Shown one piece after another: positions 4,895 through 31,072 of a stretch of 64,000 nt of DNA. The stretch is from Rhizobium sp. FY34 (GTDB lineage: Bacteria; Pseudomonadota; Alphaproteobacteria; Rhizobiales; Rhizobiaceae), in the NCBI RefSeq assembly GCF_005222845.1, contig NZ_STFZ01000034.1, forward strand, positions 62,001-126,000. Reading direction: 5' to 3'. The notes beneath the pieces are model-generated. The model saw only the letters and a program-made list of their open reading frames with translations, was not told the origin of the DNA and made no database searches. Both the position numbers and the translations under genes were made by a program. Every line of letters begins with the position of its first letter. The first letter of the stretch is position 1.

Positions 4895-5509
4895 GTGACG
4901 GCCAAGATCAAGCACATCGTCTTTGATATCGGCAAGGTACTGATCCATTACGATCCGGATATTCCCTTTTCGCGCCTCATTCCCGACGAGGAAGAACGCC
5001 GCTGGTTCTTCCAGAATGTCTGCACCCCGGACTGGAATATCGAGCAGGATCGCGGGCGCGACTGGGCTGTGGCGGAACAGCTGCTGATCAACCAATATCC
5101 GGATAAGCAAGAGCACATCCGCGCCTTTCGCAAGCACTGGCACGAAATGGTGCCGCATGCCTATGACGACAGCGTCGCGATGATGGAGGGCCTGATCCAG
5201 GCAGGCCATGACGTGACCATGCTGACGAATTTCGCCGCCGACACCTTTGCCCAGGCGCGCAAGATCTTTCCCTTTCTGGAAAAACCACGCGGCGTGACCG
5301 TGTCTGGCGAGATCTTTCTCATCAAGCCGGATGTGGAGATCTACCGGCTGCATGCCAGAAATTTCGGGCTGGAGCCTACCCACACATTGTTCATCGACGA
5401 CGCGCCCGCCAATGTAGAGGGCGCCAGGGCCGCCGGCTGGCAGGCCGTGCATTTTTCCGGCGCTGAAAAACTGAGGGCGGATCTGGCAGGCTACGGGTTT
5501 GCTGTGTAA
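4895..5509 (+). CDS. HAD superfamily hydrolase
   Basis: Haloacid-dehalogenase-fold phosphatase or dehalogenase of unknown substrate. Motif I is FDIGKVLIHYDP (nucleophile Asp about residue 11, but Gly-Lys where the acid/base Asp usually sits), motif II is MLTNFA, and motif IV is LFIDDAPANVEGAR. I place the start at the GTG at 4895 because AAGGAG at 4881-4886 lies 8 nt ahead of it. An in-frame ATG at 4877 is upstream of that ribosome-binding site. It follows mutY by 32 bp, probably as one unit. Its 3' end (GARAAG... YGFAV) is partly duplicated at 5830-5873, beyond the next gene. Confidence 0.85.
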   Translation: MTAKIKHIVFDIGKVLIHYDPDIPFSRLIPDEEERRWFFQNVCTPDWNIEQDRGRDWAVAEQLLINQYPDKQEHIRAFRKHWHEMVPHAYDDSVAMMEGLIQAGHDVTMLTNFAADTFAQARKIFPFLEKPRGVTVSGEIFLIKPDVEIYRLHARNFGLEPTHTLFIDDAPANVEGARAAGWQAVHFSGAEKLRADLAGYGFAV

Positions 5510-5520
5510 CGCGAGGAAAA

Positions 5521-5850
5521 ATGATGCGTGACGAAAAAATCTATCTCGATGGCTATCTCGATATTCCGGCAGAACGCCAACAAGCGGTGATGGAAGCTTT
5601 GCCGCTGCATATATCCCTGACGCTTGCCGAACCCGGCTGCCTGAAATTCGAGGTGCTAGAGAGCACAGAGATTGCCAGACGCCTGCTCGTATCCGAGATC
5701 TTCGTCGATCAGGCCGCATTTGAAGCGCATCAGGCCCGCAACCGCGCATCCGCGTGGTTCAGCGTCACGACCGGCATAGAACGGCATTTCCAGATCCGCA
5801 CAAGGCTCGGATGCCTGACAAACGTGGCAGGCGCCAGGGCCGCCGGCTGA
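5521..5850 (+). CDS. Antibiotic biosynthesis monooxygenase (ABM) domain protein
   Basis: Small dimeric alpha/beta-barrel protein of the ABM/quinol monooxygenase type. It opens DEKIYLDGYLDIP, carries the typical AEPGCLKFEVLES strand, and has the SEIFVDQAAFEAHQ helix that follows it in the family. 109 aa. It starts 11 bp after the HAD gene. Its last codons (NVAGARAAG, then stop) do not belong to the ABM fold. They match the HAD gene's 3' part (NVEGARAAG), so the coding end appears to be fused into a duplicated HAD tail. The substrate is unknown. Confidence 0.82.
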   Translation: MMRDEKIYLDGYLDIPAERQQAVMEALPLHISLTLAEPGCLKFEVLESTEIARRLLVSEIFVDQAAFEAHQARNRASAWFSVTTGIERHFQIRTRLGCLTNVAGARAAG

Positions 5851-5873
5851 CGGGCTACGGGTTTGCTGTGTGA
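5830..5873 (+). repeat. Partial copy of the HAD gene 3' tail
   Basis: Twenty bases at 5830-5849 are identical to 5420-5439 of the HAD gene (encoding GARAAG). Nineteen at about 5853-5871 are identical to 5489-5507 (encoding the YGFAV end). The 49 bases between them in the HAD gene are reduced to about 3 here. The tail copy ends in TGA where the gene has TAA. It lies immediately beyond the ABM gene, so that gene is bracketed by the intact tail and this remnant. Confidence 0.85.
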
Positions 5874-5895
5874 TTGACCGCTTCACGCCGTCATG

Positions 5896-5923
5896 TTGAA
5901 CAGCCTCATGATTATGCTATAGT
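5896..5923 (+). promoter_or_regulatory. Predicted sigma70-type promoter of the candidate small RNA
   Basis: A -35-like TTGAAC at 5896-5901 and a -10-like TATAGT at 5918-5923 are separated by 16 bp. A start site near 5930 would place an intrinsic terminator about 90 nt downstream, with no convincing reading frame between. Confidence 0.4.
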
Positions 5924-5929
5924 CAGGAG

Positions 5930-6017
5930 CGAGGTCAGGAGCGGTAACTCCTGACCCCGCTTCACTTAGCTAAAGAATTGAACCCGGACGCGCACTGACC
6001 AGCCTGTCCGGGTTTTT
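5930..6017 (+). ncRNA. Candidate small non-coding RNA
   Basis: Between the promoter at 5896-5923 and a terminator lie two stem-loops. The first (5933-5956) pairs GGTCAGGAG with CTCCTGACC around a six-base loop, CGGTAA. The second (5981-6014) pairs AACCCGGAC with GTCCGGGTT and runs into TTTTT, an intrinsic terminator. The linker CCGCTTCACTTAGC is AC-rich and unpaired, as in many regulatory RNAs. No family is recognised. An alternative is that the second hairpin merely terminates readthrough from the HAD/ABM unit. Confidence 0.42.
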
Positions 6018-6228
6018 CGTAGCTCAAGTGTGATTATGACAGGTACCCCCATCGTCATCACTCCTGTTCGAGAGCAGAGCCTCTGCCTCGGCCGGTGCGG
6101 CTCATCCTCACCAGTCAACGCCGGCTGGTACGGCGTCTGCTGCTTGGCTCTCGATTTTTGGAATATAGCATCAGGGAAAACAGATACGAAGAGTTGCATT
6201 GCGCGCCCGCCGTATCTCAAGCTGCTTA

Positions 6229-6499
6229 GAGCGGGTTTCGACCTGATTGAATCGTTCTGCGGCAAGGGATTTTTGTGAGGATCAAGGCCTTCGGCGAAGG
6301 CCATACCAGAGGTGTACGGTCGAGACGAAGGCCGCCGATCATCGCGAAAATTCGTGCCGCCCGAAGGGTTGGCCGAAACCGGCGCTCTCCATCGTCGAAG
6401 GGCTTACCATGTATGCTATGGCTACACCGTGCGCCCTTCTCCTTGGATAGCATCCGGTTTGGGCCAACAGAACTGATCCAATCAGGTCGAAACCCGCTC
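6229..6499 (+). mobile_element. MITE, copy 1 (271 bp, terminal inverted repeats)
   Basis: Ends in inverted repeats starting GAGCGGGTTTCGACC and continuing imperfectly through CTGATTGAATCGTTCTG, about 35 bp in all. Flanks are TTA on the left and TAA on the right. A copy about 95 percent identical lies inverted at 44987-45258. No transposase is encoded. A 75-codon frame inside is kept in both copies but looks like no known protein. Ends in GAG and a TNA-like target suggest mobilisation by an IS5-family (IS1031-like) transposase, which is inference. The rest of the gene-free 6018-6228 stretch shows nothing I recognise. Confidence 0.8.
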
Positions 6500-6515
6500 T
6501 AACCGCACAAACAAG

Positions 6516-6588
6516 GACGCCCGGTCTTGGGGATCAAGACCGGGCGTCATTTGCCCTTCTCCGGGACTGGAGTACTAACCGGAGAAGG
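6516..6588 (-). terminator. Two strong stem-loops downstream of ccrM
   Basis: Stem 1 pairs GACGCCCGGTCTT (6516-6528) with AAGACCGGGCGTC (6536-6548) over a 7-base loop. Stem 2 pairs CCTTCTCCGG (6555-6564) with CCGGAGAAGG (6579-6588). On the minus strand the first is followed by CTTGTTTGT, a weak T-tract, so they could end the ccrM transcript. Both lie in the gap between ccrM and the MITE. Confidence 0.5.
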
Positions 6589-6700
6589 AAAGCTTCATCG
6601 ACGGCGGCGGTGGATCGAAAGTCTCCGTCTGATGACTGCCAAGACGAAGAGCCCAGACTGAGGCGAAATTTCGTCGCTGCCCGTCGTTGGGATGCGAAAT

Positions 6701-7864
<1,164 letters not shown>

Positions 7865-7964
7865 TTACTGACTGTTATGGTTACCGAATTTGGTTACCAA
7901 ACCCTGAAGCCTTGCGTGAAAAGGCGAGAAATAATCAGGATGGAAGGAAAAGCCGGAACGGATT

Positions 7965-8273
7965 ATGTTAACCGGCATGAAAAAACAGGACGCGATCAGA
8001 TTGCTGAGCGAACGGGCCGAGGCCATACGGGCACTGGGCGCAACCTCGCTTTACCTGTTCGGCTCCGTGGCGCGAGACGAGGCGCGCGAGACCAGCGATC
8101 TGGACCTGTTCATTGACTATGATGCTGCCAAAAAGTTCTCACTGCTGGATCTGGTGGGGATCAAGCTTTTTCTCGAGGAGGAACTGCTCCTGGATGTGGA
8201 TGTCACCACACGCGATAGCCTGCATCCGAAGCTGAGGGATCGCATCATCGCGTCCGCCGAGCGCGTCTTCTGA
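7965..8273 (+). CDS. mntA: MntA-type nucleotidyltransferase antitoxin
   Basis: Minimal nucleotidyltransferase of the MNT/HepT type VII toxin-antitoxin family. It is expected to neutralise the HepT RNase by adding AMP to it. The catalytic pattern GS...D-x-D is visible as YLFGSVARDEARETSDLDLF at residues 30-49. 102 aa. The start could be the ATG at 7965 or the one four codons later (7977), and neither has a strong ribosome-binding site. Its TGA overlaps the partner's ATG by one base at 8273, so translation is coupled. It is divergent from ccrM. Confidence 0.86.
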   Translation: MLTGMKKQDAIRLLSERAEAIRALGATSLYLFGSVARDEARETSDLDLFIDYDAAKKFSLLDLVGIKLFLEEELLLDVDVTTRDSLHPKLRDRIIASAERVF

Positions 8274-8611
8274 TGCCGCGGGACGCTACGGTCGTACTCG
8301 ACGAAATGTTGGAAACGATCGACCGCATCGAGACATCCTTGCGCAATCGAACGTCGGATCACCTTGTGTCTGACTGGCTGCTGCGCATGGCGATTGAACG
8401 AGCAATAGAGGTCATTTCAGAGGCATCGAGACACATTCCCGACAGCCTGTTGGCAACCGAGCCGCAGATCCCCTGGAAACGGGTTCGCGCAATGGGCAAC
8501 ATTCTTCGCCACGAATATCATCGAATTGCTGTCGAGGTGATTTGGCAAATCGCTGTGAACGACCTCCCGCCTCTGAAAGAAGCCCTGCTCAGCATCAAGA
8601 CACGGCTTTAA
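8273..8611 (+). CDS. hepT: HepT-like (DUF86) HEPN RNase toxin
   Basis: HEPN-fold toxin of the DUF86 family, partner of the nucleotidyltransferase before it. All-helical, 112 aa, with the signature RAMGNILRHEYHRI. The HxY end of the HEPN motif is present, but Gly replaces the usual Arg immediately before Asn, and the nearest upstream Arg is seven residues from the His instead of four to six. Relatives with GN-x-LRHEY are common, so it may still be active. The Tyr in HEY is the residue AMPylated in characterised systems. Translation starts on the TGATG overlap. Confidence 0.85.
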   Translation: MPRDATVVLDEMLETIDRIETSLRNRTSDHLVSDWLLRMAIERAIEVISEASRHIPDSLLATEPQIPWKRVRAMGNILRHEYHRIAVEVIWQIAVNDLPPLKEALLSIKTRL

Positions 8612-8627
8612 CGACCATCTATTGAGA

Positions 8628-8951
8628 CTATCCCGCCGCCGCGTCGCGCTCGAACATGCCGTAATCGCGCAGAACATGGCCAATGCGCAGGCGGCAATCG
8701 GCAAAGATCCGCGCGCGTCCATCCCGCTCGGCCTCACGCTGGGCCTCCAGCTGCCGCCAGGCCTTCACCGCCTGTTCGTCGCGCCAGAAGGAGAGCGACA
8801 GGATCTTGCCGCGCAGCGTCAGGCTTTCAAAGCGCTCGATGGAAATGAAGCCGTCGATCTGCTCCAGCTCGGTGCGAAGCGCACCGGCCAGATCGAGATA
8901 GCGGTGGCGCTCGCCCATATAGGGCACAACCTCGAAGATGACGGCGATCAT
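8628..8951 (-). CDS. ABM-type (dimeric alpha/beta barrel) monooxygenase-like protein
   Basis: 107 aa, small dimeric alpha/beta-barrel fold. It opens MIAVIFEVVPYMGERHRYLD, has the central IDGFISIERFESLT and the LSLSFWRDEQAVKAWRQ helix typical of antibiotic biosynthesis monooxygenase relatives. No cofactor site is expected in this family and the substrate is unknown. It is divergent from the ArsR gene across 72 bp that holds an inverted repeat, so it is a plausible target of that regulator. It is not closely similar to the ABM protein at 5521. Confidence 0.82.
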   Translation of the reverse strand: MIAVIFEVVPYMGERHRYLDLAGALRTELEQIDGFISIERFESLTLRGKILSLSFWRDEQAVKAWRQLEAQREAERDGRARIFADCRLRIGHVLRDYGMFERDAAAG

Positions 8952-9000
8952 GGGTATCTCTCCTATTGCTGAGGCTCACAATGCCCCATTGCACGACGAA

Positions 9001-9026
9001 CATGCTTCGGTTACGATCGAAGTATG
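9001..9026. promoter_or_regulatory. Inverted repeat, possible ArsR-type operator
   Basis: CATGCTTCG and CGAAGTATG (8 of 9 complementary) flank an 8-bp spacer and overlap the start codon of the ArsR gene, between two divergent genes. Position and symmetry suggest autoregulation. Confidence 0.4.
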
Positions 9027-9704
9027 AAAGAAGGACCCGACATAGCCCGTATCGGCACCCTGATCGGCGACCCGGCGCGCGCCAACATGCTGACCGTCCT
9101 GATGGATGGAAAGGCATTGACGGCGACGGAATTGGCGCAGGCGGCCGGCGTGTCGCTGCCAACGGCCAGCGCCCATCTGTCGAAGCTGGAGGATGGCGGC
9201 TTGCTGACCCTGCGCAAGCAGGGCCGACACCGCTATTTCGCGCTTGCCGGCGAGACGGCAGCGCTTCTCGAAACCATCATGGGCTTTGCCGCCAGCCGGG
9301 GGCACCTGCGCCATCGGCCCGGCCCGCGCGATCCGGCCCTTCGTCAGGCGCGCATATGTTACGACCACCTGGCCGGTGATTTCGGCGTGCGCATGCTCGA
9401 CAGCCTGTTTGCGCACGGCGCAATCCTTGCCGATGGCGACATGCTGTCGCTGACGCCGCATGGCAGTCAATATATCTGCGACATGGGCATTGACGTGGAC
9501 GGACTTTCCTCCCCGCGCCGGCCTCTGTGCAAGGCCTGCCTTGACTGGAGCGAGCGGCGCTTTCACCTGGCCGGCACGCTGGGCAAGGCGCTTCTGGCCT
9601 CATTCATCGCCCGTGGCTGGGCACGCCGCGAGGAAAACAGCCGGGCCATCCGCTTCACCCGCGAGGGAACCAATCGCTTTCTGGCCCTGTTCCCCGTCGA
9701 GTAA
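9024..9704 (+). CDS. ArsR/SmtB family winged-helix regulator
   Basis: N-terminal winged helix-turn-helix of the ArsR type: IGDPARANMLTVLMDG, then recognition segment LAQAAGVSLPTASAHLSKLE and wing LRKQGRHRYFAL. The extended C-terminal half (residues 110-226) with PLCKACLDWSERRFHLAG is shared by a rhizobial ArsR subgroup. The cysteines CKAC might bind metal or sense thiol stress, but this is unproven. 226 aa. Its last 22 translated bases (FLALFPV) are repeated exactly at 11122-11143, beyond the DinB and TetR genes. The C-terminus overlaps the convergent DinB gene by 50 bp. Confidence 0.88.
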   Translation: MKEGPDIARIGTLIGDPARANMLTVLMDGKALTATELAQAAGVSLPTASAHLSKLEDGGLLTLRKQGRHRYFALAGETAALLETIMGFAASRGHLRHRPGPRDPALRQARICYDHLAGDFGVRMLDSLFAHGAILADGDMLSLTPHGSQYICDMGIDVDGLSSPRRPLCKACLDWSERRFHLAGTLGKALLASFIARGWARREENSRAIRFTREGTNRFLALFPVE

Positions 9705-10215
9705 GCTGCCGCTCACCCTGCAATCGTCGCGCAGGATCGGCTTGATGAAGATAGACTGCGAAAGTGTCCCACGGCGGAGTGATGGACAGCTGCCAGAGAA
9801 TGCGGCCTACCTCGCCCCGGTGGTAGCCTCCATGCAAGGCGACATGGGTCAGCATTTCCTCGCGGGTCATGTAGCCCTTGTCTCCATCAGTGAAGGTGAA
9901 GGCCACGACCTCGGACAGAATAGCGACAGAGGCCTGTGCGATATAGTCGAGATACCATTGGTCAGAGGAAATGACGGCGGCCCTCAGTTCATCCAATTCG
10001 GGAATTTCTTCGAAGTTGTCGGACATGAAGCCATGTGGCACGCCCTGCAGATGTCCGGCGAATATCCGGGAGACCACATAATAATGGCTGATCAGCCGAA
10101 GAGTGGTTTGTAGCTCTGTTCGGTGTCTTTCAAGGTCAATGCTTTCCAGTTTATTGAACAAATCGACATTGGCCCAAGCATGATAGCCGTAAAGCGTTTG
10201 GAGCAAGGTGCTCAT
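9655..10215 (-). CDS. DinB family protein
   Basis: Four-helix DinB/YfiT-like metalloprotein, often a thiol-dependent transferase. Possible metal ligands are H in LISHYYVVSRIFAGH (about residue 50) and the pair HVALHGGYHRGEV (about residues 130-138). 186 aa from the ATG at 10215, supported by AAAGGA 9 nt upstream, while a GTG two codons earlier is too close to that site. The last 20 or so residues are read from the antisense of the ArsR gene end, so the natural stop may have been lost when the module joined. It is divergent from the TetR gene. Confidence 0.84.
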   Translation of the reverse strand: MSTLLQTLYGYHAWANVDLFNKLESIDLERHRTELQTTLRLISHYYVVSRIFAGHLQGVPHGFMSDNFEEIPELDELRAAVISSDQWYLDYIAQASVAILSEVVAFTFTDGDKGYMTREEMLTHVALHGGYHRGEVGRILWQLSITPPWDTFAVYLHQADPARRLQGERQLTRRGTGPESDWFPRG

Positions 10216-10237
10216 TGCCACCGATCCTTTAGAGGTT

Positions 10238-10268
10238 TAGAAATGTGAGCAAGTCCTTCATATTTCTA
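10238..10268. promoter_or_regulatory. Inverted repeat between DinB and TetR genes, possible operator
   Basis: TAGAAAT (10238-10244) and ATTTCTA (10262-10268) form perfect arms with a 17-bp spacer in the short divergent gap, a usual place for a TetR operator. Confidence 0.35.
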
Positions 10269-10281
10269 CGGAGTTAGTTTT

Positions 10282-10923
10282 TTGTCTACTCGCATTGCAA
10301 AACAGCGATCCGTGATGCGCAAGGAGCCGCGACAGGCGAGATCTCGCGCAACTGTCGAAACCATCGTCCAGGCCGGGGCTCGCATTCTGAGCGATGAAGG
10401 GTGGGCGGGTTTCACGACGAACCGGATCGCAGAACTGGCTGGCGTCAGTATCGGCTCCCTCTACCAGTATTTCCCCGATAAGCTTTCTCTGGTCGATGCG
10501 ATCCGCCATCGTCATCTGGATGACAGCATGGCAGTGATGCGCAGTATCCGAGCAGACGCGTTGTCGTCGGCAGAGTTTGCGGCGCAGCTGGTGCCGGCCG
10601 TAGTCGCCGCCCATAGCGTCTATCCGGGCCTGCACCGCGTGCTGTTGGACGAAGCTCCCAGCTCCGAAGAGTATCGAAACCCGCACAGCGAATTTGAGAT
10701 TGAATATCTCTCTTACTACACCCAGGCCGTCGCAACTTACCGAAAGCGCTCACCCACTGAAGCTGACCGTATCGCGGGACGCGTGATTTCGGATGCGATA
10801 GACGGGGTGATTCACAATGCAGCGCGCCGGGGTTACATCGATGACCCAGTGATGCAAAATGAACTTGTTCATCTGGTAAGACTATATCTTAGCGATGATC
10901 GCGCGACGAAGAACACTGCTTAG
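10282..10923 (+). CDS. TetR family transcriptional regulator
   Basis: 213 aa. The N-terminal helix-turn-helix reads TVETIVQAGARILSDEGW, then TTNRIAELAGVSIGSLYQYF, the classic TetR pattern; the C-terminal domain is ligand-binding and unassigned. I accept the TTG at 10282 because GGAG lies 8 nt upstream. An ATG at 10315 would remove 11 residues and leave the DNA-binding domain intact. It is divergent from DinB and likely regulates it. The TAG stop lies inside the terminal repeat of the element at 10921-11087. Confidence 0.87.
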   Translation: MSTRIAKQRSVMRKEPRQARSRATVETIVQAGARILSDEGWAGFTTNRIAELAGVSIGSLYQYFPDKLSLVDAIRHRHLDDSMAVMRSIRADALSSAEFAAQLVPAVVAAHSVYPGLHRVLLDEAPSSEEYRNPHSEFEIEYLSYYTQAVATYRKRSPTEADRIAGRVISDAIDGVIHNAARRGYIDDPVMQNELVHLVRLYLSDDRATKNTA

Positions 10924-11087
10924 CAGGCGGCTGAAAAGGCCTTTCGAACCCGCCCAGAGAGAAAACTCGCTTGTTTTCTGGCCGATATCCACCGAAACAG
11001 CGGGCGATTCTGGCCGGTTTTGGACAGATTTCCTCGTTTTCCGAGAGCAAGCGCGCGAGCCGACCGCACTTTTTCAGCAGCCTGTTA
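10921..11087. mobile_element. Short element with imperfect terminal inverted repeats (MITE-like)
   Basis: Left end TAGCAGGCGGCTGAAAAGG and right end (reverse complement) TAACAGGCTGCTGAAAAAG match in 16 of 19 positions. 167 bp, no coding capacity I can support. The left end supplies the stop codon of the TetR gene. Unrelated in sequence to the MITE at 6229. Confidence 0.55.
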
Positions 11088-11121
11088 GAATGTCATTTCG
11101 CTCCCAGCCCAAACCGCCCCC

Positions 11122-11143
11122 CTTTCTGGCCCTGTTCCCCGTC
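11122..11143 (+). repeat. Copy of the ArsR gene 3' tail
   Basis: 22 bases identical to 9677-9698, encoding FLALFPV in the ArsR gene. Here the frame goes on for six codons (KAHDAA) to TGA. The DinB/TetR module lies between the two copies. The remainder of the gap 11088-11231 shows nothing else. Confidence 0.7.
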
Positions 11144-11231
11144 AAGGCTCACGACGCAGCCTGATTGTTATCGCGGCCCGCCTCGTGTAGGTCAGGCGCC
11201 ATTGACGGACAAACGGAAAGATCATTCTCCC

Positions 11232-11921
11232 ATGAGCGGTTTCGACCTCATCATCTTCGACTGTGACGGCGTTCTGGTCGATTCGGAAATCATTGCAGCC
11301 CAGGTCGAATCCAGGCTTCTGACGGAAGCCGGCTACCCGATCAGCGTGGAAGAAATGGGCGAGCGCTTTGCCGGCATGACCTGGAAGAACATTCTGCTGA
11401 CGGTGGAAAAGGAGATCGACATCCCGCTCTCCGCCTCGCTGCTCGACAAATCCGAAAAGATGCTGGATGCGCGGCTGGCGCGTGACGTCAAAGTGATCGA
11501 GGGCGTCAAATTTGCGCTGTCGCGCCTGACGACGCAGAGCTGCATCTGCTCCAATTCCTCAAGCCAGCGGCTGGACATGATGCTGACGAAAGTGGGCCTG
11601 AAGCCCTATTTCGAGCCGAACATCTTTTCCGCCAAGGATCTGGGCGCCGATCGCGTCAAGCCGAAGCCGGACATTTTCCTGCATGCGCTGAAGATGTTCA
11701 ACGTGCCGGCAGAGCGCGCCGTGGTGATCGAGGATTCAGTGCATGGTGTGCATGGCGCCGTGGCGGCCGGCTGCCGCGTCATCGGCTTTACCGGTGCCTC
11801 GCACACCTATCCAAGCCATGCGGACCGGCTGACGGATGCCGGCTGCGAAACGGTGATTGCCCGCATGAGCGATCTGCCGGCGACCATCACGGCGCTTGCC
11901 GAATGGGTCGGCGCCGCCTGA
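11232..11921 (+). CDS. HAD-IA family phosphatase (phosphoglycolate phosphatase/beta-PGM-like)
   Basis: 229 aa. Motif I FDCDGVLVDSE carries both Asp residues, a cap domain follows, motif II is CSNSSS, motif III is the Lys in RVKPKPDIF, and motif IV is VVIEDSVHGVHGA. The arrangement matches the subfamily containing beta-phosphoglucomutase, sugar phosphatases and Gph, and the substrate cannot be told. Start at ATG 11232 (MSGFDLIIFDCDG), since the open frame upstream comes from unrelated sequence. Single gene, convergent with the lipoprotein gene. Confidence 0.88.
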   Translation: MSGFDLIIFDCDGVLVDSEIIAAQVESRLLTEAGYPISVEEMGERFAGMTWKNILLTVEKEIDIPLSASLLDKSEKMLDARLARDVKVIEGVKFALSRLTTQSCICSNSSSQRLDMMLTKVGLKPYFEPNIFSAKDLGADRVKPKPDIFLHALKMFNVPAERAVVIEDSVHGVHGAVAAGCRVIGFTGASHTYPSHADRLTDAGCETVIARMSDLPATITALAEWVGAA

Positions 11922-24160: not shown

Positions 24161-24279
24161 TGGCTTGAAACCGGCAGGGGCTTTCAGGAGCGCCCCTGCC
24201 CCACCGCCTCACCACTTGGAACCACAGTGGTTCTTACGTCTTGATCGTGTCTTCCTGCTTGCCTTGATCCCGCCGCATT

Positions 24280-24293
24280 TGTTATAACATAAC
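24280..24293. promoter_or_regulatory. Candidate Zur box of the zinc transporter operon
   Basis: TGTTATAACA (perfect palindrome, 24280-24289) within GTTATAACATAAC. It resembles the AT-rich Zur operators of alphaproteobacteria and lies about 40 bp ahead of the operon's first start codon. Assignment rests on resemblance and context. Confidence 0.5.
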
Positions 24294-24323
24294 GCTTATA
24301 CAATAACGGTTCCAAGGCCAGTC

Positions 24324-24443
24324 ATGCGTAAGCCCTCCCCCATCAGCCTGATGCAGCATGCAGCGCTTTCGCGCATGGCGGCAGCCCTTGTGGTCATTGC
24401 CGGGTTGTGGCTTGCCATTTCCTGGGCGGTCAGCCTGCCATGA
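24324..24443 (+). CDS. 39-aa single-span membrane peptide at the head of the zinc transporter operon
   Basis: ATG at 24324 opens a 39-codon frame whose product has a basic N-terminus (MRKPSPISLMQH) and one hydrophobic span (AALVVIAGLWLAISWAVSL), predicting a small inner-membrane protein with its N-terminus inside. Its TGA overlaps the start of the transporter ATPase gene as ATGA at 24440-24443. AAGG lies about 6 nt upstream of the ATG. I do not recognise a family. It could be a small transporter subunit, a regulator, or a leader whose translation couples to the ATPase gene. Confidence 0.55.
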   Translation: MRKPSPISLMQHAALSRMAAALVVIAGLWLAISWAVSLP

Positions 24444-25192
24444 GTGAGGCCGCGCTGACGCTTTCCAACCTCACCATTGCCTACGACCGGCATCCGGCGG
24501 TGCATCATGTCTCCGGCACGCTGAAGCACGGCAGCCTGACGGCGATTGCCGGGCCGAACGGGGCTGGCAAATCGACGCTTCTGAAAGCCATTATCGGCGA
24601 GCTTGCACCTGCCGAAGGCCGTATCGAACACGGGTTGAAGCGCGCCGAAATCGGCTATCTGCCGCAGGCCGCCGAGATCAACCGGCGCTTTCCCATCAAT
24701 GTGCTGGATACGGTGCTTCTGGGTGACTGGCATCAAAGCGGCGCCTTTGGCCGCGTCAGCCGGGCCGCCCTGGCAAAGGCGCAAGGCGCCTTGCATGCGG
24801 TGGGCCTTGAGGGTTTTGACAAGCGCGCCATCGGCTCTCTATCGGCCGGCCAGTTCCAGCGCGTGCTGTTTGCACGGCTTTTATTGCAGGATGCGCGGCT
24901 GATCCTGCTCGACGAGCCGTTTACCGCCATCGATGCGCGCACGACGCGCGACCTCTTGGGGCTTGTCAGCAACTGGCATGGCGAAGGCCGCACGGTGGTG
25001 GCGGTACTTCACGATTTTGACCAGGTGCGCACGCATTTTCCAGAGACGCTGCTGATTGCCCGCGAGCTGATCGGCTGGGGCACAACCAAGGATGTGATGA
25101 CGCCGGACAATCTGGCCCGCGCCCGCGCCATGGCCGAGCGTTTCGACGAGACGGCAGAGATCTGCGCGCCGCAACGCGAGACGGCCGCATGA
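24440..25192 (+). CDS. Zinc ABC transporter ATP-binding protein (ZnuC/AztA-like)
   Basis: ATPase subunit of a metal-chelate-type importer. Walker A GPNGAGKST (about residue 36), Q-loop in YLPQAAE, signature LSAGQFQR, Walker B LILLDEP and the switch His in VLHDFD are all present. 250 aa. Start at ATG 24440, which overlaps the preceding small frame's stop; its own stop overlaps the permease ATG at 25189. The gene order ATPase-permease-binding protein is that of AztABC or TroCBA systems, hence no firm symbol. Confidence 0.92.
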   Translation: MSEAALTLSNLTIAYDRHPAVHHVSGTLKHGSLTAIAGPNGAGKSTLLKAIIGELAPAEGRIEHGLKRAEIGYLPQAAEINRRFPINVLDTVLLGDWHQSGAFGRVSRAALAKAQGALHAVGLEGFDKRAIGSLSAGQFQRVLFARLLLQDARLILLDEPFTAIDARTTRDLLGLVSNWHGEGRTVVAVLHDFDQVRTHFPETLLIARELIGWGTTKDVMTPDNLARARAMAERFDETAEICAPQRETAA

Positions 25193-26061
25193 GCGCCTAT
25201 GAGATTTTCCTGGCACCCATGGTGGATTACGGCTTCATGCGCCGGGCGCTTGTGGCGTGCCTCTGCCTTGCACTCGGATCCGGGCCGATGGGCGTGTTCC
25301 TGATGATGCGGCGCATGAGCCTGATGGGCGATGCGCTGAGCCATGCCGTACTGCCGGGTGCTGCCATCGGCTATCTGGTTGCCGGTTCGCTGTCGCTGAC
25401 GGCCATGGGCATTGGCGGGCTGGTGGCCGGTCTATCGGTTGCGCTTTTGTCCGGCGCTGTCAGCCGCGCCACGGTTCTGTCGGAAGATGCAAGCTTTGCC
25501 AGCTTCTATCTGGCGTCTCTGGCGCTTGGCGTGCTGATCGTCTCGCTGCGCGGCTCCAATATCGACCTCTTGCATGTGCTGTTTGGCACCATCCTTGCCA
25601 TTGATACGCAAGCGCTGGTGCTGATCGGCGCCATCACCTCTGTCACGCTTCTGGTGTTGGCGCTGATCTACCGGCCATTGGTGGCAGAATGTTTCGATCC
25701 CGGTTTCCTGCGCGCCGTTGGCGGGCGCGGACCGCTCTATCACATCGCCTTTCTGGCGCTGGTGGTGCTCAATCTCGTGGCAAGCTTCCAGGCGCTCGGC
25801 ACGCTGATGGCCGTCGGGCTGATGATGCTGCCGGCGGCCATTGCCCAGCTCTGGTCGCGCAACCTGCCGCGCATGCTGGCGATTGCCGCACTGACCGCCT
25901 TCATCTCCGGCTATCTCGGCCTGATTGCCTCCTATCATCTCGAAATCGCCTCCGGTCCGACCATCATCATGGTGGCGGCGATCATTTATGGCGCTTCGAT
26001 CTTCATCGCGCCCTCCGGCCTTGCCCGGCGCTATTTCCCCCGCCCGCATCTCAAGGGTTGA
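25189..26061 (+). CDS. Zinc/manganese ABC transporter permease (ZnuB/AztB-like)
   Basis: 290-aa integral membrane subunit of the ABC-3 family with about eight hydrophobic segments. LMMRRMSLMGDALSHAVLPG (residues 38-57) is the diagnostic ABC-3 stretch that contacts the ATPase, and LGTLMAVGLMMLPAAIAQLW is equally typical. Translation is coupled to the ATPase gene by an ATGA overlap, and the binding-protein gene follows by 17 bp with its own ribosome-binding site. Confidence 0.93.
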   Translation: MSAYEIFLAPMVDYGFMRRALVACLCLALGSGPMGVFLMMRRMSLMGDALSHAVLPGAAIGYLVAGSLSLTAMGIGGLVAGLSVALLSGAVSRATVLSEDASFASFYLASLALGVLIVSLRGSNIDLLHVLFGTILAIDTQALVLIGAITSVTLLVLALIYRPLVAECFDPGFLRAVGGRGPLYHIAFLALVVLNLVASFQALGTLMAVGLMMLPAAIAQLWSRNLPRMLAIAALTAFISGYLGLIASYHLEIASGPTIIMVAAIIYGASIFIAPSGLARRYFPRPHLKG

Positions 26062-26078
26062 CCTCAAGGAGCTTGCCC

Positions 26079-26978
26079 ATGTTGTTTAGAAAAACGCTTC
26101 TCGCCGCCGCTGCCATTCCGGCGCTGATGGCCTTTTCCGCCCCCGTTTCGGCGGCTGAGCTGAAGGCCGTTGCCTCGTTCACCGTGCTCGCCGATGTCGT
26201 CCACCAGGTGGGCGGCGACAAGGTGAAGGTGACGAGCCTCGTTGGCCCCGACGGCGACCCCCATGAATTTGAACCCTCGCCGAAGGATGCCAAGGCCCTG
26301 AAGGCCGCCGATGTGGTCTTCGTTTCGGGCGAGGGTCTGGAAGGCTGGCTCGACCGGCTGATCTCGGCCTCCGGCACCAAGTCCAAGCCTGTCACCGTCT
26401 CGGAAGGTGTGAAGACCCGCACCATGGATGAGGACGGCAAGACTGTGACCGATCCGCATGTGTGGAACAGCCCGGTGAATGTGAAGTTCTGGGTCGCCAA
26501 TATCGAAAAGGCGCTGTCGGCTGCCGATCCGGCAGACGCTGCCACCTTCAAGGCGAATGCCGAGGCCTACACGAAAAAACTCGACGCCATGGATGCCTAT
26601 GCGCGCGAAAAGTTGGAAAAGATCCCCGAGGATCGCCGCAAGGTGCTGACCAGCCATGATGCCTTTGGCTATTTCGGCCGCGAATACAAGGTGACCTTCC
26701 TCTCGCCGCTCGGTGTCTCCACCGAAAGCGAAGCTTCCGCCGCGGATGTGGCCAAGCTGATCGACCAGATCAAGGCCGAACGGGTGAAGACCTACTTCTT
26801 TGAAAACTCCAACGATCCCCGCCTTGTGAAGCAGGTGGCGAAAGCCACCGGCGCCCAGCCGGGCGGCGAGCTTTATGTTGAAGCGCTCTCCAAGCCATCC
26901 GGCCCGGCAGCCACCTATGAGAAGATGTTCCGGTTTAACGTGGACCAGCTCTCTGCTGCCATGCTGAAGGGCAGCTGA
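26079..26978 (+). CDS. Zinc-binding periplasmic protein of the ABC transporter (ZnuA/AztC-like)
   Basis: 299 aa, cluster A-I solute-binding protein. The signal peptide ends near PVSAAE. Likely metal ligands are His in DPHEFEPS, His in DPHVWNS, His in SHDAFGYF and an acidic residue in FENSNDPR. The His-rich flexible loop common in ZnuA is absent, which resembles AztC or Mn/Zn TroA proteins; the Zur-like box argues for zinc. Start ATG 26079 with AAGGAG 7 nt upstream. Confidence 0.92.
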   Translation: MLFRKTLLAAAAIPALMAFSAPVSAAELKAVASFTVLADVVHQVGGDKVKVTSLVGPDGDPHEFEPSPKDAKALKAADVVFVSGEGLEGWLDRLISASGTKSKPVTVSEGVKTRTMDEDGKTVTDPHVWNSPVNVKFWVANIEKALSAADPADAATFKANAEAYTKKLDAMDAYAREKLEKIPEDRRKVLTSHDAFGYFGREYKVTFLSPLGVSTESEASAADVAKLIDQIKAERVKTYFFENSNDPRLVKQVAKATGAQPGGELYVEALSKPSGPAATYEKMFRFNVDQLSAAMLKGS

Positions 26979-27016
26979 GTTTATTGGAGCGAATACCGGC
27001 GGCAGAGCGGGAGTTA

Positions 27017-27190
27017 TCCCCCTCTGCCCTGCCGGGCATCTCCCCCTCAAGGGGGGAGATCGGCAAGGGGGACGGCCCCGACTTAAAGAACACGATATAT
27101 ATACCGAGAGCTTACAAAAACGTTGCAAGCGTCGGCGACACGGAGATCTCCCCCCTTGAGGGGGAGATGCCCGGCAGGGCAGAGGGGGGT
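27017..27190. repeat. Palindromic mosaic intergenic repeat, copy C
   Basis: Arms of about 45 bp at 27018-27061 and 27145-27190 are inverted copies. Each has an outer CCCCTCTGCCCTGCCGGGC and an inner CTCCCCCTCAAGGGGGGAG hairpin. The centre contains an AT-rich tract (ATATATATAC). It shares its arms with the element at 2006-2211. It occupies most of the gap between the zinc-transporter operon and the Dabb tail copy. Confidence 0.75.
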
Positions 27191-27207
27191 GCAGCCGAGG
27201 CAAAGCC

Positions 27208-27245
27208 TCATACGTCCGTGTCAAACACCAGCGGCTCGGCGAGAC
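27208..27245 (-). pseudogene. Dabb gene 3' tail, remnant 1
   Basis: On the minus strand this reads LAEPLVFDTDV and stop. It aligns with the last codons of the intact Dabb gene at 30764 (LAGLLVFDMDV and stop) with about 75 to 80 percent identity over 38 bases. No upstream coding part remains. It lies directly beyond the transglutaminase-like gene. Confidence 0.6.
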
Positions 27246-27333
27246 ATTGCTATCGCCACAAAGCGCCCAATTGACAAATTTTGAAAATTTGCCCTCCTTG
27301 TCATGTCTCAATCTCCATTGGAAAGAGACGGCA

Positions 27334-28194
27334 ATGCGCAAATCCTTTTATGCTTCCCACAGCACCTACTCAGAACCTGGGCCGTATCGCGAAACATTGA
27401 TGCGCGCTGGCATCGAGCCAAAATCAATTGCCCGGTGGATTGGCTCATTCATGCAGCATCCTCGCGGGCTTGAATCCCAAGAGCGAGGCTTCAAACCTGA
27501 ACAGGCCGCAGATCTGGAGCTTCGTTCGGTGGCAGAGATTCTGTCTGTGGCCGCAAAACGCGATTTGTTTGAAGGCTGTTCTACACAGTTTAAAATCGGC
27601 GGCGTATGCCGGGATTTCGCTCTACTAGCGGTGAGTGGATTTCGTGAGCGCGGCATCCCGGCTCGCCTCCGGGTCGGGTTTGCAGATTATTTGGTGCCTG
27701 GCCATTGGGAAGATCATTGGCTGTGTGAATGGCATGACGGAATGCGCTGGAACCGGCTCGATGTAGAGTTTACGGCTATCGACGGAGTGTCATTCGATAG
27801 CTTGGACGTGCCGCCGGAGCGGTTCCTAACCGCAAGCGAGGCATGGTTCTGGATCAAGGACAAGCCGGAGATCGCCGCGCAGTTTGGCGTGTCGAGCCTA
27901 GATCTTGCTGGGGAGTGGTTCGCCGCGGGGAGCCTGTTTCGCGAAATCGCCGCCCTGCGCCGGCTGGAACTGAAACCCTGGGATTATTGGGGTCTATCAG
28001 AACACCTTTCCCGCGTTTCAACCGAGTGGTCTCAGCAGGCGTGGACAATGCTCGACCAACTCGCTTCACGGCTCAAGAACGCCAATCTTAACGGGGACGG
28101 TGAACCGGACGCTTTAGCGGACTGGCCTTTACCAAATCGGATTGTCAGCTTCCCGCAAGGCGAGGCTGTCGCCGTCATGTTGAGTGATTTCTAA
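27334..28194 (+). CDS. Transglutaminase-like superfamily protein
   Basis: 286 aa with a papain-like transglutaminase core. The presumed catalytic Cys lies in GVCRDFALLAVSGFRERGIP (about residue 92), His in GHWEDHWLCEWHDG and Asp in RWNRLDVEF. The C-terminal 120 residues are helical and unassigned. Cytoplasmic, no signal peptide. Start at ATG 27334; the in-frame extension upstream enters the Dabb remnant. Such proteins act as cysteine proteases or amidases, and the substrate is unknown. It is bracketed by two Dabb tail remnants, suggesting acquisition. A terminator follows. Confidence 0.82.
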   Translation: MRKSFYASHSTYSEPGPYRETLMRAGIEPKSIARWIGSFMQHPRGLESQERGFKPEQAADLELRSVAEILSVAAKRDLFEGCSTQFKIGGVCRDFALLAVSGFRERGIPARLRVGFADYLVPGHWEDHWLCEWHDGMRWNRLDVEFTAIDGVSFDSLDVPPERFLTASEAWFWIKDKPEIAAQFGVSSLDLAGEWFAAGSLFREIAALRRLELKPWDYWGLSEHLSRVSTEWSQQAWTMLDQLASRLKNANLNGDGEPDALADWPLPNRIVSFPQGEAVAVMLSDF

Positions 28195-28231
28195 CCTGCG
28201 CAACAAAACCAAACGCACTGAACAACCAAGG

Positions 28232-28271
28232 AAACTCAGCTGCGAAATTTCAGGTTTCGCGGCTGAGTTTT
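28232..28271 (+). terminator. Intrinsic terminator after the transglutaminase-like gene
   Basis: AAACTCAGCTGCGAAA pairs with TTTCGCGGCTGAGTTT (one mismatch) around a short loop and ends in TTTT, 38 bp past the stop codon. Confidence 0.75.
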
Positions 28272-28292
28272 GCGACGTTTCTGAGGCCACCC

Positions 28293-28380
28293 TCACACGT
28301 CCATGTCAAACACCAGAAGCGCAGCGAGCCCGCCATCGCAGGCAGCGACGGCTTCCCATCGGCGGTCTCGCGCCATCGGA
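28293..28380 (-). pseudogene. Dabb gene 3' tail, remnant 2
   Basis: On the minus strand the frame ends VAACDGGLAALLVFDMDV and stop, against VAACDGGLAGLLVFDMDV in the intact Dabb gene. The first 60 bases from the stop are roughly 85 to 90 percent identical, after which similarity fades into rearranged sequence. The remaining 28381-28528 stretch shows nothing else I can name. Confidence 0.75.
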
Positions 28381-28528
28381 ATGGCATGGCCGCTGCCGCA
28401 AGATTGCTTGGTCTGCAATATCGCCAGACTCGGGAAAAAACGTTGCGGAACAGGGAATTTGTGACCAGATGGAATAACGAATAATGATCGGCTAAGGTCT
28501 TTAAAAGCCGCTCTATCCGAGGTCACCC

Positions 28529-29143
28529 ATGGAACTGTTGTCTGTCGCTATCTTTGCAGGCGCCCTGCTTCTAAACGCGGGCACGCCCGGCCCGAGTATA
28601 GCCGCACTTGTATCGCGTGTGATCACCAATGGTTGGCGAGACGTCATCCCCTTCGTCGCCGCTATGTGGATCGGCGAGGTAATTTGGCTTACTATGGCAA
28701 TGGCTGGCCTCACAGCGTTGGCTCAGACATTCCAGTTCGGTTTTCACGTCTTGAAGTGGCTGGGCGTCGCGTATCTCTGCTGGTTGGCGTTCAAGATGTG
28801 GCACAAGCCAGTGGGCGAAAGTGCTGACGATCTTCCTCGGCGTGCCTCGCCCTTGTCCATGTTCGGCGCAGGCATGGCGCTCACCTTGGGCAATCCGAAG
28901 ATTATGGTGTTCTACATTGCCCTTCTGCCGTCCTTGATCGATCTTTCTGCTACGGGACTTCAGGAATGGGCAATCCTCGCAGCCACCACGTTGGTGACGC
29001 TTGCCGCAATTGATTTGACCTGGACCTTCCTCGCGCACAAAGCGCGGCTTCTATTGCGAACCCCTCGCGCCATACGGATTGCGAACCGGATTGGAGCCGT
29101 CGCTCTGGGCGGGGCCGCAGCCGCTATCGCGACACGAAATTGA
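28529..29143 (+). CDS. LysE family transporter, second gene
   Basis: 204 aa, six-span exporter of the LysE/RhtB superfamily. NAGTPGPSIAALVSRVITNG near the N-terminus and GMALTLGNPKIMVFYIALLP at about residues 113-132 are diagnostic. The substrate is unknown. Codon use is more AT-rich than the backbone. It is preceded by AGG-type ribosome-binding site TCCGAGGTCACCC and lies in the accessory stretch between a Dabb remnant and the intact Dabb gene. Confidence 0.88.
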   Translation: MELLSVAIFAGALLLNAGTPGPSIAALVSRVITNGWRDVIPFVAAMWIGEVIWLTMAMAGLTALAQTFQFGFHVLKWLGVAYLCWLAFKMWHKPVGESADDLPRRASPLSMFGAGMALTLGNPKIMVFYIALLPSLIDLSATGLQEWAILAATTLVTLAAIDLTWTFLAHKARLLLRTPRAIRIANRIGAVALGGAAAAIATRN

Positions 29144-29188
29144 TGATCGTGAATAAAGCAGCGGCGCAGAACGATATGGCAGGTTAAG

Positions 29189-29320
29189 CCCCTCACCCCG
29201 TCAAGAGCGGGGTGAGGGAACGAGGCAGATGACATCTCGAAAAGGTAGAACCAGTGCGGCATATCCCTTCGCCCCGCCAAGCAGGGAGAAGGGTCCGCAG
29301 GACGCAGCCGGATGAGGGGC
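29189..29320. repeat. Palindromic intergenic repeat, copy D
   Basis: Left hairpin CCCCTCACCCCGTCAAGAGC and GGGGTGAGGG (29189-29218), right part CCCTTCGCCCCGCCAAGCAG to GGATGAGGGGC (29265-29320). Related to the element at 43380. It lies in the 350-bp gap 29144-29494, which otherwise shows only AT-rich sequence before the next gene, probably its promoter. Confidence 0.6.
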
Positions 29321-29494
29321 TTTGAGCCCATGATGGTCATTGACTTGAGCCTCACGTCTTCCAGAAAGCGACATGAAGCAGCATGACTGCAGCCAATGCG
29401 ACCAATCACAGTAAATCTGCTACTTTAAATCGCAGTGGCGCGCGAGAAATTTTTACTATAGAATCTCGAAATTGAAAATAACTAGAGCTTTACT

Positions 29495-30724
29495 ATGGCA
29501 ACGACCGTCATTCTGCATCTTAGCGGCGGCAATAACTTCAGGAAAATTGTAAGATTCACCGGCCTTTCCCATGACATGCTATTACACCCCGCAGTAACTA
29601 GCGAACCTGTCCTCACAGCCCAAGCGTTCTACTACATCGACGACCTTGAGCTTGTCGCCAAAATTCGTTTTGAGCACGAGACTGACGAGATTTCAGAAGC
29701 TGATATAGATTATCTTGTAGACAACTATCTATTCGAGCTTAGCAGAATTCACGACGAGCAAAAAATCTGTGCCAAGTTAGATAGGTTCAGATTCTGGAGC
29801 AATGACCCGGACGATTTTTACGTCAATGTCGATAATCGGCACACGCGATCGTTGGTGCTGGATGTATACAACGATCCAGATGTGGCGTATGTGTTAGCTG
29901 CTGACGGTTTTGTAGACGTTAACCTGTCGAGCTGGGACATAGGGCGAAATTGCGCTGCAGACTGCCTACAGGCATACGTAAAGACGCTCGCAGCAACCCT
30001 TGAAAGCAAGATCTCCACGGCTATCAGTCCGACGCCTTATCGCAGCGGATATATTGGACGTATGCGCGTTCTCAAATCAGGCGACGGTCTATTGGACTTC
30101 AATCAAGCAATGTCACTTGAGGATATATCAATTCGAGCTGTTGGACCGGAAACGACTGTCCTGCCGCTTAGGCCGTCAGACACCGAGTGGACGGAAACGG
30201 ACCTGTCTGTTGAGCACGTGCAGGCCATAAATCGCTATAATCCTGTTCTACTCTCACACTACTTCTCCGGCCTCAAAGAGATCAATCCGATGAAGGCGTT
30301 CATAGGGTTCTACAATGTTCTTGAGTATTTTCTTGGGGAGATTCCCGCTCAGACCAACCTCGGCCGTGACATCGAAAAAGTGCAACTCGCAGCACTGATT
30401 AAGCATCTTTTTACAGAGCAGAATATTCAGACACTCATTTTGAAGAGCACCAGCGAGGATCTATCGATAGTCAGTAGGGATTTAATGACTTCATCCGGAG
30501 TACCGATTAGGGGCCTTATACTCGGAACTGACACATGCGCGGAAGTTTCACGGTGGCTTTACGATATCCGCTGTGCAGTGGTGCATTCCAAGAAAAGTAG
30601 GCGTGGCCAATTGACTGCTTCGTTTGAGCCGTATTCCGCAGCGTCCAACTCGCTGCAAAGCGTCGTGCCGATAGTGCGCTGGATTGCGGCTGAAGCCATG
30701 ATGGCAGAAGGCGTAGAGCCATAG
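29495..30724 (+). CDS. Uncharacterised protein with C-terminal HEPN-like motif (MauJ-like)
   Basis: 409 aa, clearly lower GC than its neighbours and with no signal peptide or membrane span. The N-terminal 230 residues are mixed alpha/beta and unrecognised. The C-terminal 150 are helical: AFIGFYNVLEYFLGEIPAQ at about 265-283 and, near residue 364, YDIRCAVVHSKK, which contains R-x4-H, the RNase motif of HEPN domains. The overall layout recalls MauJ-like proteins. A ribonuclease, perhaps in phage defence or stress response, is inference. No adjacent antitoxin or nuclease partner is visible. It is convergent with Dabb. Confidence 0.7.
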   Translation: MATTVILHLSGGNNFRKIVRFTGLSHDMLLHPAVTSEPVLTAQAFYYIDDLELVAKIRFEHETDEISEADIDYLVDNYLFELSRIHDEQKICAKLDRFRFWSNDPDDFYVNVDNRHTRSLVLDVYNDPDVAYVLAADGFVDVNLSSWDIGRNCAADCLQAYVKTLAATLESKISTAISPTPYRSGYIGRMRVLKSGDGLLDFNQAMSLEDISIRAVGPETTVLPLRPSDTEWTETDLSVEHVQAINRYNPVLLSHYFSGLKEINPMKAFIGFYNVLEYFLGEIPAQTNLGRDIEKVQLAALIKHLFTEQNIQTLILKSTSEDLSIVSRDLMTSSGVPIRGLILGTDTCAEVSRWLYDIRCAVVHSKKSRRGQLTASFEPYSAASNSLQSVVPIVRWIAAEAMMAEGVEP

Positions 30725-30763
30725 CAGTGGGTCCCCCAACCGACCACTGCGCCTCCCTCCCCC

Positions 30764-31072
30764 TCACACGTCCATGTCAAATACCAGCAGTCCGGCGAGC
30801 CCGCCATCGCAGGCGGCGACGATGCGGTCGCCAACCGCCATATGGTCGGGATGCGAGAGATAGGCGTCGCGGGCATCAGCGGTCTCGAAGGTGACCACGA
30901 AACCATCCTGAAAACCGCCGCTCAGACCTTCGCGCGAGACATTGGGGCCAAAGGAAATGCCGGCAATGCCGGGTATGACGGTTTTCAGCGCCGCAATTGC
31001 CGCAAAGATCGACTGTTTCTCGGCAGGTGGCAATGACGCCTTCAGCCGCAGGAATACGCAGTGCAGGATCAT
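30764..31072 (-). CDS. Dabb (stress-responsive A/B barrel) domain protein
   Basis: 102 aa, small dimeric alpha/beta barrel of the Dabb family: MILHCVFLRLKA, then PGIAGISFGPNVS, GFVVTFETADARDAYLSHPDH, and the final VFDMDV strand. No catalytic residues are conserved in the family, whose role is unclear apart from stress induction in plants. Start at ATG 31072 with GGGAGG 7 nt upstream. Truncated copies of its 3' end occur at 28293 and 27208, each beyond inserted genes. Confidence 0.88.
   Translation of the reverse strand: MILHCVFLRLKASLPPAEKQSIFAAIAALKTVIPGIAGISFGPNVSREGLSGGFQDGFVVTFETADARDAYLSHPDHMAVGDRIVAACDGGLAGLLVFDMDV

Follow-up and report, generated by a model that had tools for sequence, protein, structure and literature searches.

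Displaced gene tails behind small accessory modules in Rhizobium sp. FY34 as probable scars of recombination with homology on one side

How do small accessory genes without an adjoining recombinase come to lie between an ordinary gene and a second copy of that gene's own 3' end? The question was raised by a 64,000-nucleotide stretch of the Rhizobium sp. FY34 genome (the window, positions 62001-126000 of contig C30 in genome G000). A preliminary description had reported accessory genes followed by a partial gene tail at three loci of this stretch, namely behind a HAD-family hydrolase gene, an ArsR-type regulator gene and a Dabb-domain gene. Our analysis confirmed the copies beyond the accessory genes, which corresponded to tail stretches of 22-97 bp. 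We considered it probable that they were scars of slot accretion, in which incoming DNA was joined homologously on the gene side and illegitimately on the other, as in homology-facilitated illegitimate recombination (HFIR). This reading was built on observed features: the order of the parts, native ends displaced behind the newcomer, alleles that were empty or held a single module, recurrence in several species, and a far joint lacking homology.

The comparison set comprised 57 species of the genus including that of the window, and the relatives included Neorhizobium galegae, N. huautlense, N. alkalisoli and Rhizobium oryzicola. Genes were called with a simple codon-usage caller (1113 genes in 1.229 Mb of G000). 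Pfam searches covered the window proteins scanned and a later set of proteins from relatives and recurrence loci. The names rluD, DagK, oligopeptidase, GGDEF, Gfo/Idh, acetyltransferase, glnA and ZnuA were assigned by reading of protein sequences.

Displaced tails in the window

At the ArsR locus, the regulator gene (9024-9704, plus strand; Pfam) was followed by a module of two genes, encoding a DinB-family protein (9655-10221, minus strand; Pfam DinB) and a TetR-family regulator (10282-10923, plus strand; Pfam). Beyond this module, positions 11122-11143 (plus strand), exactly where the copy had been placed before, were identical to ArsR positions 9677-9698 (22/22). In five relatives (G058, G053, G018, G012 and G019) the ArsR protein mostly ended in ...FPVxDxDAA* (longer in G019), and the DNA continued into CCTGATTGTT...CTCGTGTAG. 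G011 had the same long end but a smaller part of the intergenic DNA. In the window, this ArsR end and intergenic stretch followed the 22-bp copy (11144-11200, plus strand), and the intact gene finished in GTC GAG TAA. The terminal GAG TAA was new, its stop codon being antisense to DinB codons, and the 3' end of the DinB gene was also changed at the junction. By comparison with the five relatives, and with the sixth in the coding part, the copy with its flank was the native ArsR end in displaced form, which bore out the proposed order of intact gene, insertion and old tail. Relatives had slots without this module: the gene HAD2 began 71-131 bp from ArsR in 13 of 23 of them and 1.6-2.0 kb away in the other ten.

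The DinB-TetR module had an 84% relative at another location in G008, where it was part of an array with repeated sites beside a tyrosine recombinase. This array of small accessory genes (locus L207 on G008:C29, 2151-10173) carried a 76-bp repeat between three gene pairs and related half-sites elsewhere. By eye, its genes were methyltransferase-, MocR-, EamA-, NUDIX- and AraC-like, together with TetR/DinB, and a tyrosine recombinase of 206 aa (Pfam Phage_integrase) lay near one end. The array was integron-like, although the recombinase was short. Inspection by eye showed no attC-like site where the DinB module joins ArsR, and an origin as an integron-like cassette was rejected since no palindromic site such as copies of window modules had elsewhere was seen at this junction. 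A separate element of about 170 bp (10921-11090) with inverted ends CAGGCGGCTGAAAAG / CTTTTTCAGCAGCCTG adjoined the ArsR tail copy and resembled, by eye, an insertion sequence (IS) or a miniature inverted-repeat transposable element (MITE).

The Dabb locus contained two tail copies. The intact gene (30764-31072, minus strand; Pfam Dabb) was adjoined by a module with a 409-aa gene that had no match in the Pfam search (29495-30724, plus strand), and a LysE-type exporter gene followed (28529-29143, plus strand; Pfam), with an 86% relative on contig C11 of G000. Tail copy 1 was located at 28290-28350 (minus strand, 55/61); its extension to 28380 in the preliminary description was not clear. Further on were a transglutaminase-like gene (27247-28194, plus strand; Pfam), with 80-82% relatives elsewhere in G046, G052 and G057, and tail copy 2, whose limits were revised to 27205-27244 (minus strand). 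The second copy matched at 32 of 40 positions, compared to just 8-11 of 40 after shifts of 1-3 bp, and was read as the oldest displaced end. Next to it was a ZnuA-like gene (26064-26978, plus strand), the native downstream neighbour of Dabb. Within the stretches compared, ZnuA was downstream of Dabb in 21 of 29 usable relatives, at 225 bp or less in 16 of them, and the distance was 0.7-2.5 kb in G008, G019, G011, G012 and G050. The three modules of the window's Dabb slot were in none of the stretches from these 29 relatives. In this survey, G012 and G050, which were present twice, were each counted once, G046, G005 and G058 had weak matches to the gene interior that were left out of the tail count, and G016 was unusable.

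A perfect 44-nt inverted repeat (within 27018-27188) was located between Dabb copy 2 and ZnuA, and similar palindromes were widespread in these genomes. Palindromic sites that by eye were of the type found in the G008 array followed the transglutaminase-like module in three species and flanked a LysE-GNAT pair on C11 of G000 (loci L086, L088, L089 and L206 9760-11110). In L088, a long inverted repeat enclosed the module in its loop.

The HAD gene (4877-5509, plus strand; Pfam HAD_2/Hydrolase) was matched in all 57 genomes of the genus. In the window it was followed by an ABM-domain gene (5521-5850, plus strand; Pfam ABM) and by the displaced tail, which was relocated from 5830-5873 to 5821-5871 (plus strand). 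This copy equalled the final 97 bp of the gene ahead of the stop (5411-5507), from which 46 bp between two CTGGCAGGC repeats were missing; positions 5411-5445 matched at 29/35 and 5483-5507 at 23/25. The last ABM codons were supplied by the tail copy, and the ABM proteins of relatives could be aligned no further than residue 93-94. The idea of ABM as a simple newcomer was dropped because ABM was a frequent old neighbour of HAD: it sat behind HAD in 9/57 genomes, and the HAD-ABM spacing in the window resembled that of relatives. The order of addition was therefore less certain at HAD, and we gave this locus less weight. The gap between HAD and a methyltransferase gene ranged from 112 bp to 3.5 kb (54 of 57 genomes with both in the stretch).

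The HAD tail copy was present in three of the 57 genomes, namely G000, G022 and G046, a count that omitted two weak non-tail matches in G011 (other strand) and G070 (gene start). In G022, a MazEF-type pair (Pfam PemK_toxin, MazE-like) lay between HAD and its tail copy. In G046, HipBA (HipA_C; HTH_3) lay between the intact gene and the displaced tail, and beyond the tail there was a decayed MazF with a ParD-type pair, as seen by eye and by alignment to G063 (the Pfam match for ParD belonged to the G063 protein, and its partner had no Pfam match). The displaced tail of G046, together with the DNA behind it, formed one uninterrupted alignment with the HAD end of G063 and the DNA that follows there (75.7% over 1482 columns). 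The intact G046 protein ended in ...GVQV* and the G063 protein in ...RVRNVDI*. Since the displaced tail was collinear with G063 and the intact end was different, the displaced tail was the resident allele and the newcomer carried its own tail. Among 80 named HAD loci, six matched the tail search; the two good matches were N. huautlense and N. alkalisoli, which we took to be G046 and G022 and not extra cases, and the other four, all weak (57-68%), were probably HAD paralogues.

Other occupants were observed in the HAD slot. In ten relatives (G001, G004, G005, G007, G016, G041, G048, G056, G059 and G062) a gene that resembled LexA or phage repressors by eye was antiparallel right behind HAD, without a tail copy. 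An interspersed repeat at 5913-6170 recurred in the HAD slots of G018, G012, G050 and G019 as well as elsewhere in several genomes. A second repeat element (6226-6502) with 28-nt inverted ends, probably a MITE, had copies of 95-97% on C30 and C6.

How unusual such tails were was estimated by an edge scan, in which the last 160 nt of each gene of at least 240 bp were compared with non-coding DNA up to 6 kb downstream (match +1, mismatch -1). In a 1.23-Mb sample of G000 that included the window, a score of at least 20 was reached by four of 1073 genes: rluD (104), which was outside the window, Dabb (46), ArsR (23) and HAD (21). Tail copies were thus not as common in swapped gene orders, an alternative considered in the preliminary description: none of 10,489 swapped gene/flank pairs reached a score of 18. 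Opposite-strand matches scoring at least 22 were absent for both tails and heads in an earlier part-sample of 718 genes. An exact 20-mer test without the non-coding filter found 5/1073 genes versus 14/5362 swapped pairs, presumably because dispersed coding paralogues entered the count, and it was discarded as poorly discriminating in favor of the edge scan. Three of the four scoring genes sat inside 26 kb, within the window picked for the preliminary description, and this clustering had no explanation besides chance and the choice of window.

Recurrence at other genes and in other species

The rluD gene of G000 had the highest-scoring tail copy, 111 bp with 108/111 identities (97%). Between the gene and its copy there was an antitoxin-type helix-turn-helix gene (HTH_3 above the Pfam cut-off, MqsA below). 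Single-module alleles of this slot were visible in relatives. Namely, rluD was followed by a methyltransferase-like gene in G008, G012 and G018, by a BrnT toxin gene with an antitoxin-like gene in G058, and by an antitoxin-like gene alone in G053. G000 combined them in the order rluD, antitoxin-like gene, rluD tail and methyltransferase-like gene. Its module started as that of G053 did (TAGCGACTGG / TGACGCCTGG in G000 and G053), and from the tail copy onward it was collinear with G008. No further tail copy was found in the rluD stretches of 29 relatives.

A similar situation was found behind a DagK-like gene. In G015, a GGDEF-like gene separated it from a tail copy of 89 bp (82/89). Among the matches listed, and by coordinates, the slot had a contiguous merged form in G015, G001, G023, G057 and G002. 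In G049, G010 and G020 it held just the GGDEF gene, adjoined by the next gene, and in G068 just the second open reading frame (ORF2), contiguous with the DagK-like gene; it was empty in G000 and G011, where the next conserved gene followed. Relatives of the kind anticipated in the preliminary description, in which the gene was directly followed by the sequence now behind the tail copy, were thus found for rluD and DagK. As read from these alleles, the tail copy at both genes marked the meeting place of two single-module alleles.

Moreover, a prolyl-oligopeptidase-like gene in G053 had a tail copy of 87 bp (83/87), behind which lay a Gp49-like gene and another small gene. By coordinates, G062 had a 325-bp match of 82% to the end of the same gene, at a distance of about 1.3 kb on its downstream side, and the idea that the blocks had a typical length near 100 bp was abandoned because of it. 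The modules at the recurrent sites were several times toxin-antitoxin genes, as identified from their sequences.

A mirror case was located on contig C11 of G000, where a Gfo/Idh-like gene had its ribosome-binding site and initial codons duplicated upstream (81 bp, 80%), with an acetyltransferase-like gene between the two heads. By eye, a decayed form was present in G008. The acetyltransferase gene was missing at this site in G011, G053, G012, G018, G050 and G058. A donor origin of the 5' copy was considered and not retained, as the two heads were 79% alike, heads of the G044 type were 52-60% like either, and no donor was identified.

A repeat search yielded one clean tail-copy case in 400 kb of G053 and one in 400 kb of G015. 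These counts excluded further intergenic pairs (e.g., at 9-18 kb and 94.7/99.4 kb in G053 and at 60 kb and 329 kb in G015). The repeat scans discarded coding-coding pairs of paralogues or domains, one tRNA and one resolvase-like pair (the latter at C6 142881), intergenic repeats with many copies, the pair of Dabb copies 1 and 2, which belonged to one locus, and C6 162563 (29 bp, inside a gene). The same search in E. coli MG1655 (100-500 kb) gave five rows and no gene-tail case; according to the annotation, the rows were aceF (two rows), tRNA-Asp, IS30 and IS1.

Origin of the tail copies

According to our model, the slot behind the HAD, ArsR, Dabb, rluD, DagK-like and oligopeptidase-like genes of this genus would be a variable locus that was either empty or occupied by alternative small modules. 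DNA from another strain with the gene end and a module A would recombine with a resident that had the same gene and a module B, or an empty slot. The exchange on the gene side would be homologous, so that the gene would stay intact with module A behind its stop codon as in the donor. At the far end of A, without homology, illegitimate joining would occur inside the last 22-125 bp of the resident gene (325 bp once). The product would be the gene, A, the old gene tail, B and the next gene, and further rounds could stack modules, compare the two Dabb tail copies. The donor molecule, linear or circular, would be homologous on one side only, and the recombination would probably depend on RecA. Most donors would belong to the recipient's own species or to one very close to it, since the compared copy pairs resembled each other more than they resembled relatives.

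The junctions were informative in this respect. At rluD, DagK and HAD (with ABM), the gene-module junction also occurred in relatives that had no tail copy; at ArsR and Dabb no such relative was found. The junction of module and old tail was new, and the module end was identical to the gene sequence before the copied block at 5-8 of 30 positions at five loci (HAD, ArsR, Dabb copy 1, rluD and oligopeptidase; 14/30 at DagK). An old left junction with a new, non-homologous far joint fitted one-sided homology and needed no enzyme of its own. The old resident 3' end was retained behind the newcomer at ArsR, rluD, DagK and, in G046, HAD. Homology-assisted illegitimate recombination, the first option of the preliminary description, was therefore the one supported.

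A number of observations weighed against this reading. Both copies belonged to the same lineage at rluD and in the 5' case and were near-identical at ArsR (22/22) and Dabb, and target duplication in place explained such pairs equally well. Most joints were within 125 bp of the stop codon instead of being spread along the gene. Published HFIR often deletes recipient DNA. No donor allele with ArsR next to DinB was found; the ArsR stop came from DinB antisense, and the donor ArsR end was invisible beyond 22 bp. None of the 29 relatives had a Dabb allele with the LysE or the transglutaminase gene alone. At DagK, among the matches listed, both modules were present in G043, G044, G069 and G071, with about 100 bp missing at the copy's position. 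G022, G063 and G046 had both modules with the copy stretch unmatched, and in G007, G054, G056 and G072 more than 2 kb separated DagK from a GGDEF-type match in the slot. The GGDEF-only alleles could also be losses from the merged form.

Insertion with duplication of the target in place was a possible, though rather unlikely, explanation, in which the survival of harmless insertions alone would make gene ends seem targeted. It accommodated the mirror case at a gene 5' end and the copy pairs of one lineage in most cases; most lengths (22-125 bp) agreed with the "in the order of 100 bp" mentioned in PMC3874152, and ArsR resembled a 22-bp duplication around a shortened module. Direct repeats of 22-325 bp flanked the modules, and no transposase domain was found among the window modules scanned with Pfam. 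An origin of both repeats from one target was compatible with ArsR, Dabb, rluD and the 5' case but was contradicted at HAD of G046, where the two tails were different allele types. The left junctions at rluD, DagK and HAD, which occurred in alleles without a tail copy, were also against it. Ku-type end joining was unlikely and was rejected, since no Ku gene (PF02735) was matched in G000 by a search that, among 14 control genomes, gave a match in B. subtilis. We were doubtful about a circle of gene tail and module, which would be freed by recombination between donor tail copies and would enter the same gene of a recipient by a single crossover; this route overlapped with our preferred explanation, and its likelihood was not to be added to it. 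Such a circle would explain the short tails, the intact genes and the same gene being struck in different species (HAD in 3/57; the oligopeptidase-like gene in G053 and G062), and single crossovers of partly deleted circles in E. coli conjugation led to duplications of 109-950 bp (PMC3240628). However, no circle was observed, 22 bp at ArsR were very short for RecA, and modules behind the same gene without a tail copy were not expected from simple circle entry.

The second option of the preliminary description, an integrase supplied in trans that integrates site-specifically at the 3' ends of genes, seemed very unlikely; it would make the modules similar to cis-mobilizable elements (CIMEs) between attachment (att) sites. 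The layout did equal attL, element and attR at a gene end, and the blocks at rluD, Dabb and the oligopeptidase-like gene stopped 2-3 bp past the stop codon. A real case with its own integrase-like gene existed in G000, a prophage-like element of 9.7 kb (C11:264874-274684) between identical 47-bp repeats, one of which overlapped tRNA-Val. However, the six tails had no shared core, as 14 of 15 pairs were inside the shuffled range and the fifteenth, rluD-DagK, merely equaled the shuffled maximum, so each gene would require its own, absent integrase. The mirror case at a gene 5' end and the gene-module junctions of relatives, which had no att-like repeats, argued in the same direction. As reported before, no integrase was visible at the three loci among the window proteins scanned with Pfam, and reading by eye of HAD slots from 25 relatives, where no family search was made, revealed none. 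Finally, remnants of tandem gene duplicates that had lost their main part were hardly credible. Fragments of the same gene were close by, genuine tandem paralogues existed in G000 (they were set apart in the scans), and by its coordinates the 325-bp tail of G062 could be such a remnant. On the other hand, no full second copy was found in the stretches of relatives examined behind HAD (57), ArsR (23), Dabb (29) or rluD (29), contrary to the paralogue alternative of the preliminary description; the rluD copy was 97% identical but only 111 bp long, and the flanks matched single-module alleles.

Significance and known systems

Many small accessory genes have no adjoining recombinase, and how they arrived usually goes unexplained. 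Scars of the kind described here would provide a readable record of the last module in, the allele that it met and the position of the joint. The edge scan with its swapped-pair control can be applied to any genome, so that the share of small-gene gain by one-sided recombination becomes measurable. The direct repeats also predicted reversible module loss. It was conceivable, though we thought it improbable, that the modules, several of them toxin-antitoxin genes, traveled between strains as units with some 20-125 bp of the end of a particular host gene, entered by homology only and rebuilt the gene, which would be an integrase-free mobility addressed by homology. If so, gene edges would serve as addresses, and the direct repeats left behind would permit clean excision.

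The closest known cases appeared to be the immunity-gene arrays of the Vibrio cholerae type VI secretion system (T6SS) and insertion with long target duplication. For the former, sequential displacement through homology-facilitated illegitimate recombination was proposed (Kirchberger et al. 2017, PMC5361080). As outlined there, each newcomer is placed after a common anchor and pushes the previous 3' end and accessory genes further downstream, and the rounds are repeated, similar to our loci. The T6SS anchor is part of the effector locus itself, whereas the anchors here were ordinary genes (rluD, DagK-like, HAD, Dabb and ArsR), and unlike the arrays in that outline, the modules had no relation to the anchor, being toxin-antitoxin genes, regulators, exporters and enzymes. 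The same source mentioned displaced C-terminal ends of rhs and contact-dependent inhibition (CDI) toxin genes. Insertion of restriction-modification genes with long target duplication was described in Helicobacter pylori by Nobusato et al. (2000), as cited in PMC1643837, PMC4978471, PMC3874152, PMC3154945 and PMC2749054. Going by these citations, small transposase-less modules between direct repeats of about 100 bp were common to both systems, but the repeats in our case were gene edges, the inner junction pre-existed in relatives at three loci, and at one locus the two repeats were different alleles.

The rhs/CDI genes also have orphan gene 3' ends behind a newer end; at our loci there was no exchange of toxin tips, and the anchor protein was hardly changed. 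In CIMEs and tandem accretion, an integrase-less element is located between repeats at a gene 3' end and insertions are stacked. Our loci were similar in having no visible integrase, repeats at a gene 3' end and stacking. Unlike CIMEs, they had no common att core, and no related integrase-bearing element was found at these genes. No report of such a pattern in rhizobia was found in the literature searched, whose coverage left out most subscription journals. In comparison to the known systems, the distinguishing features were the use of ordinary genes as anchors and the single-module alleles that were visible at two loci, rluD and DagK.

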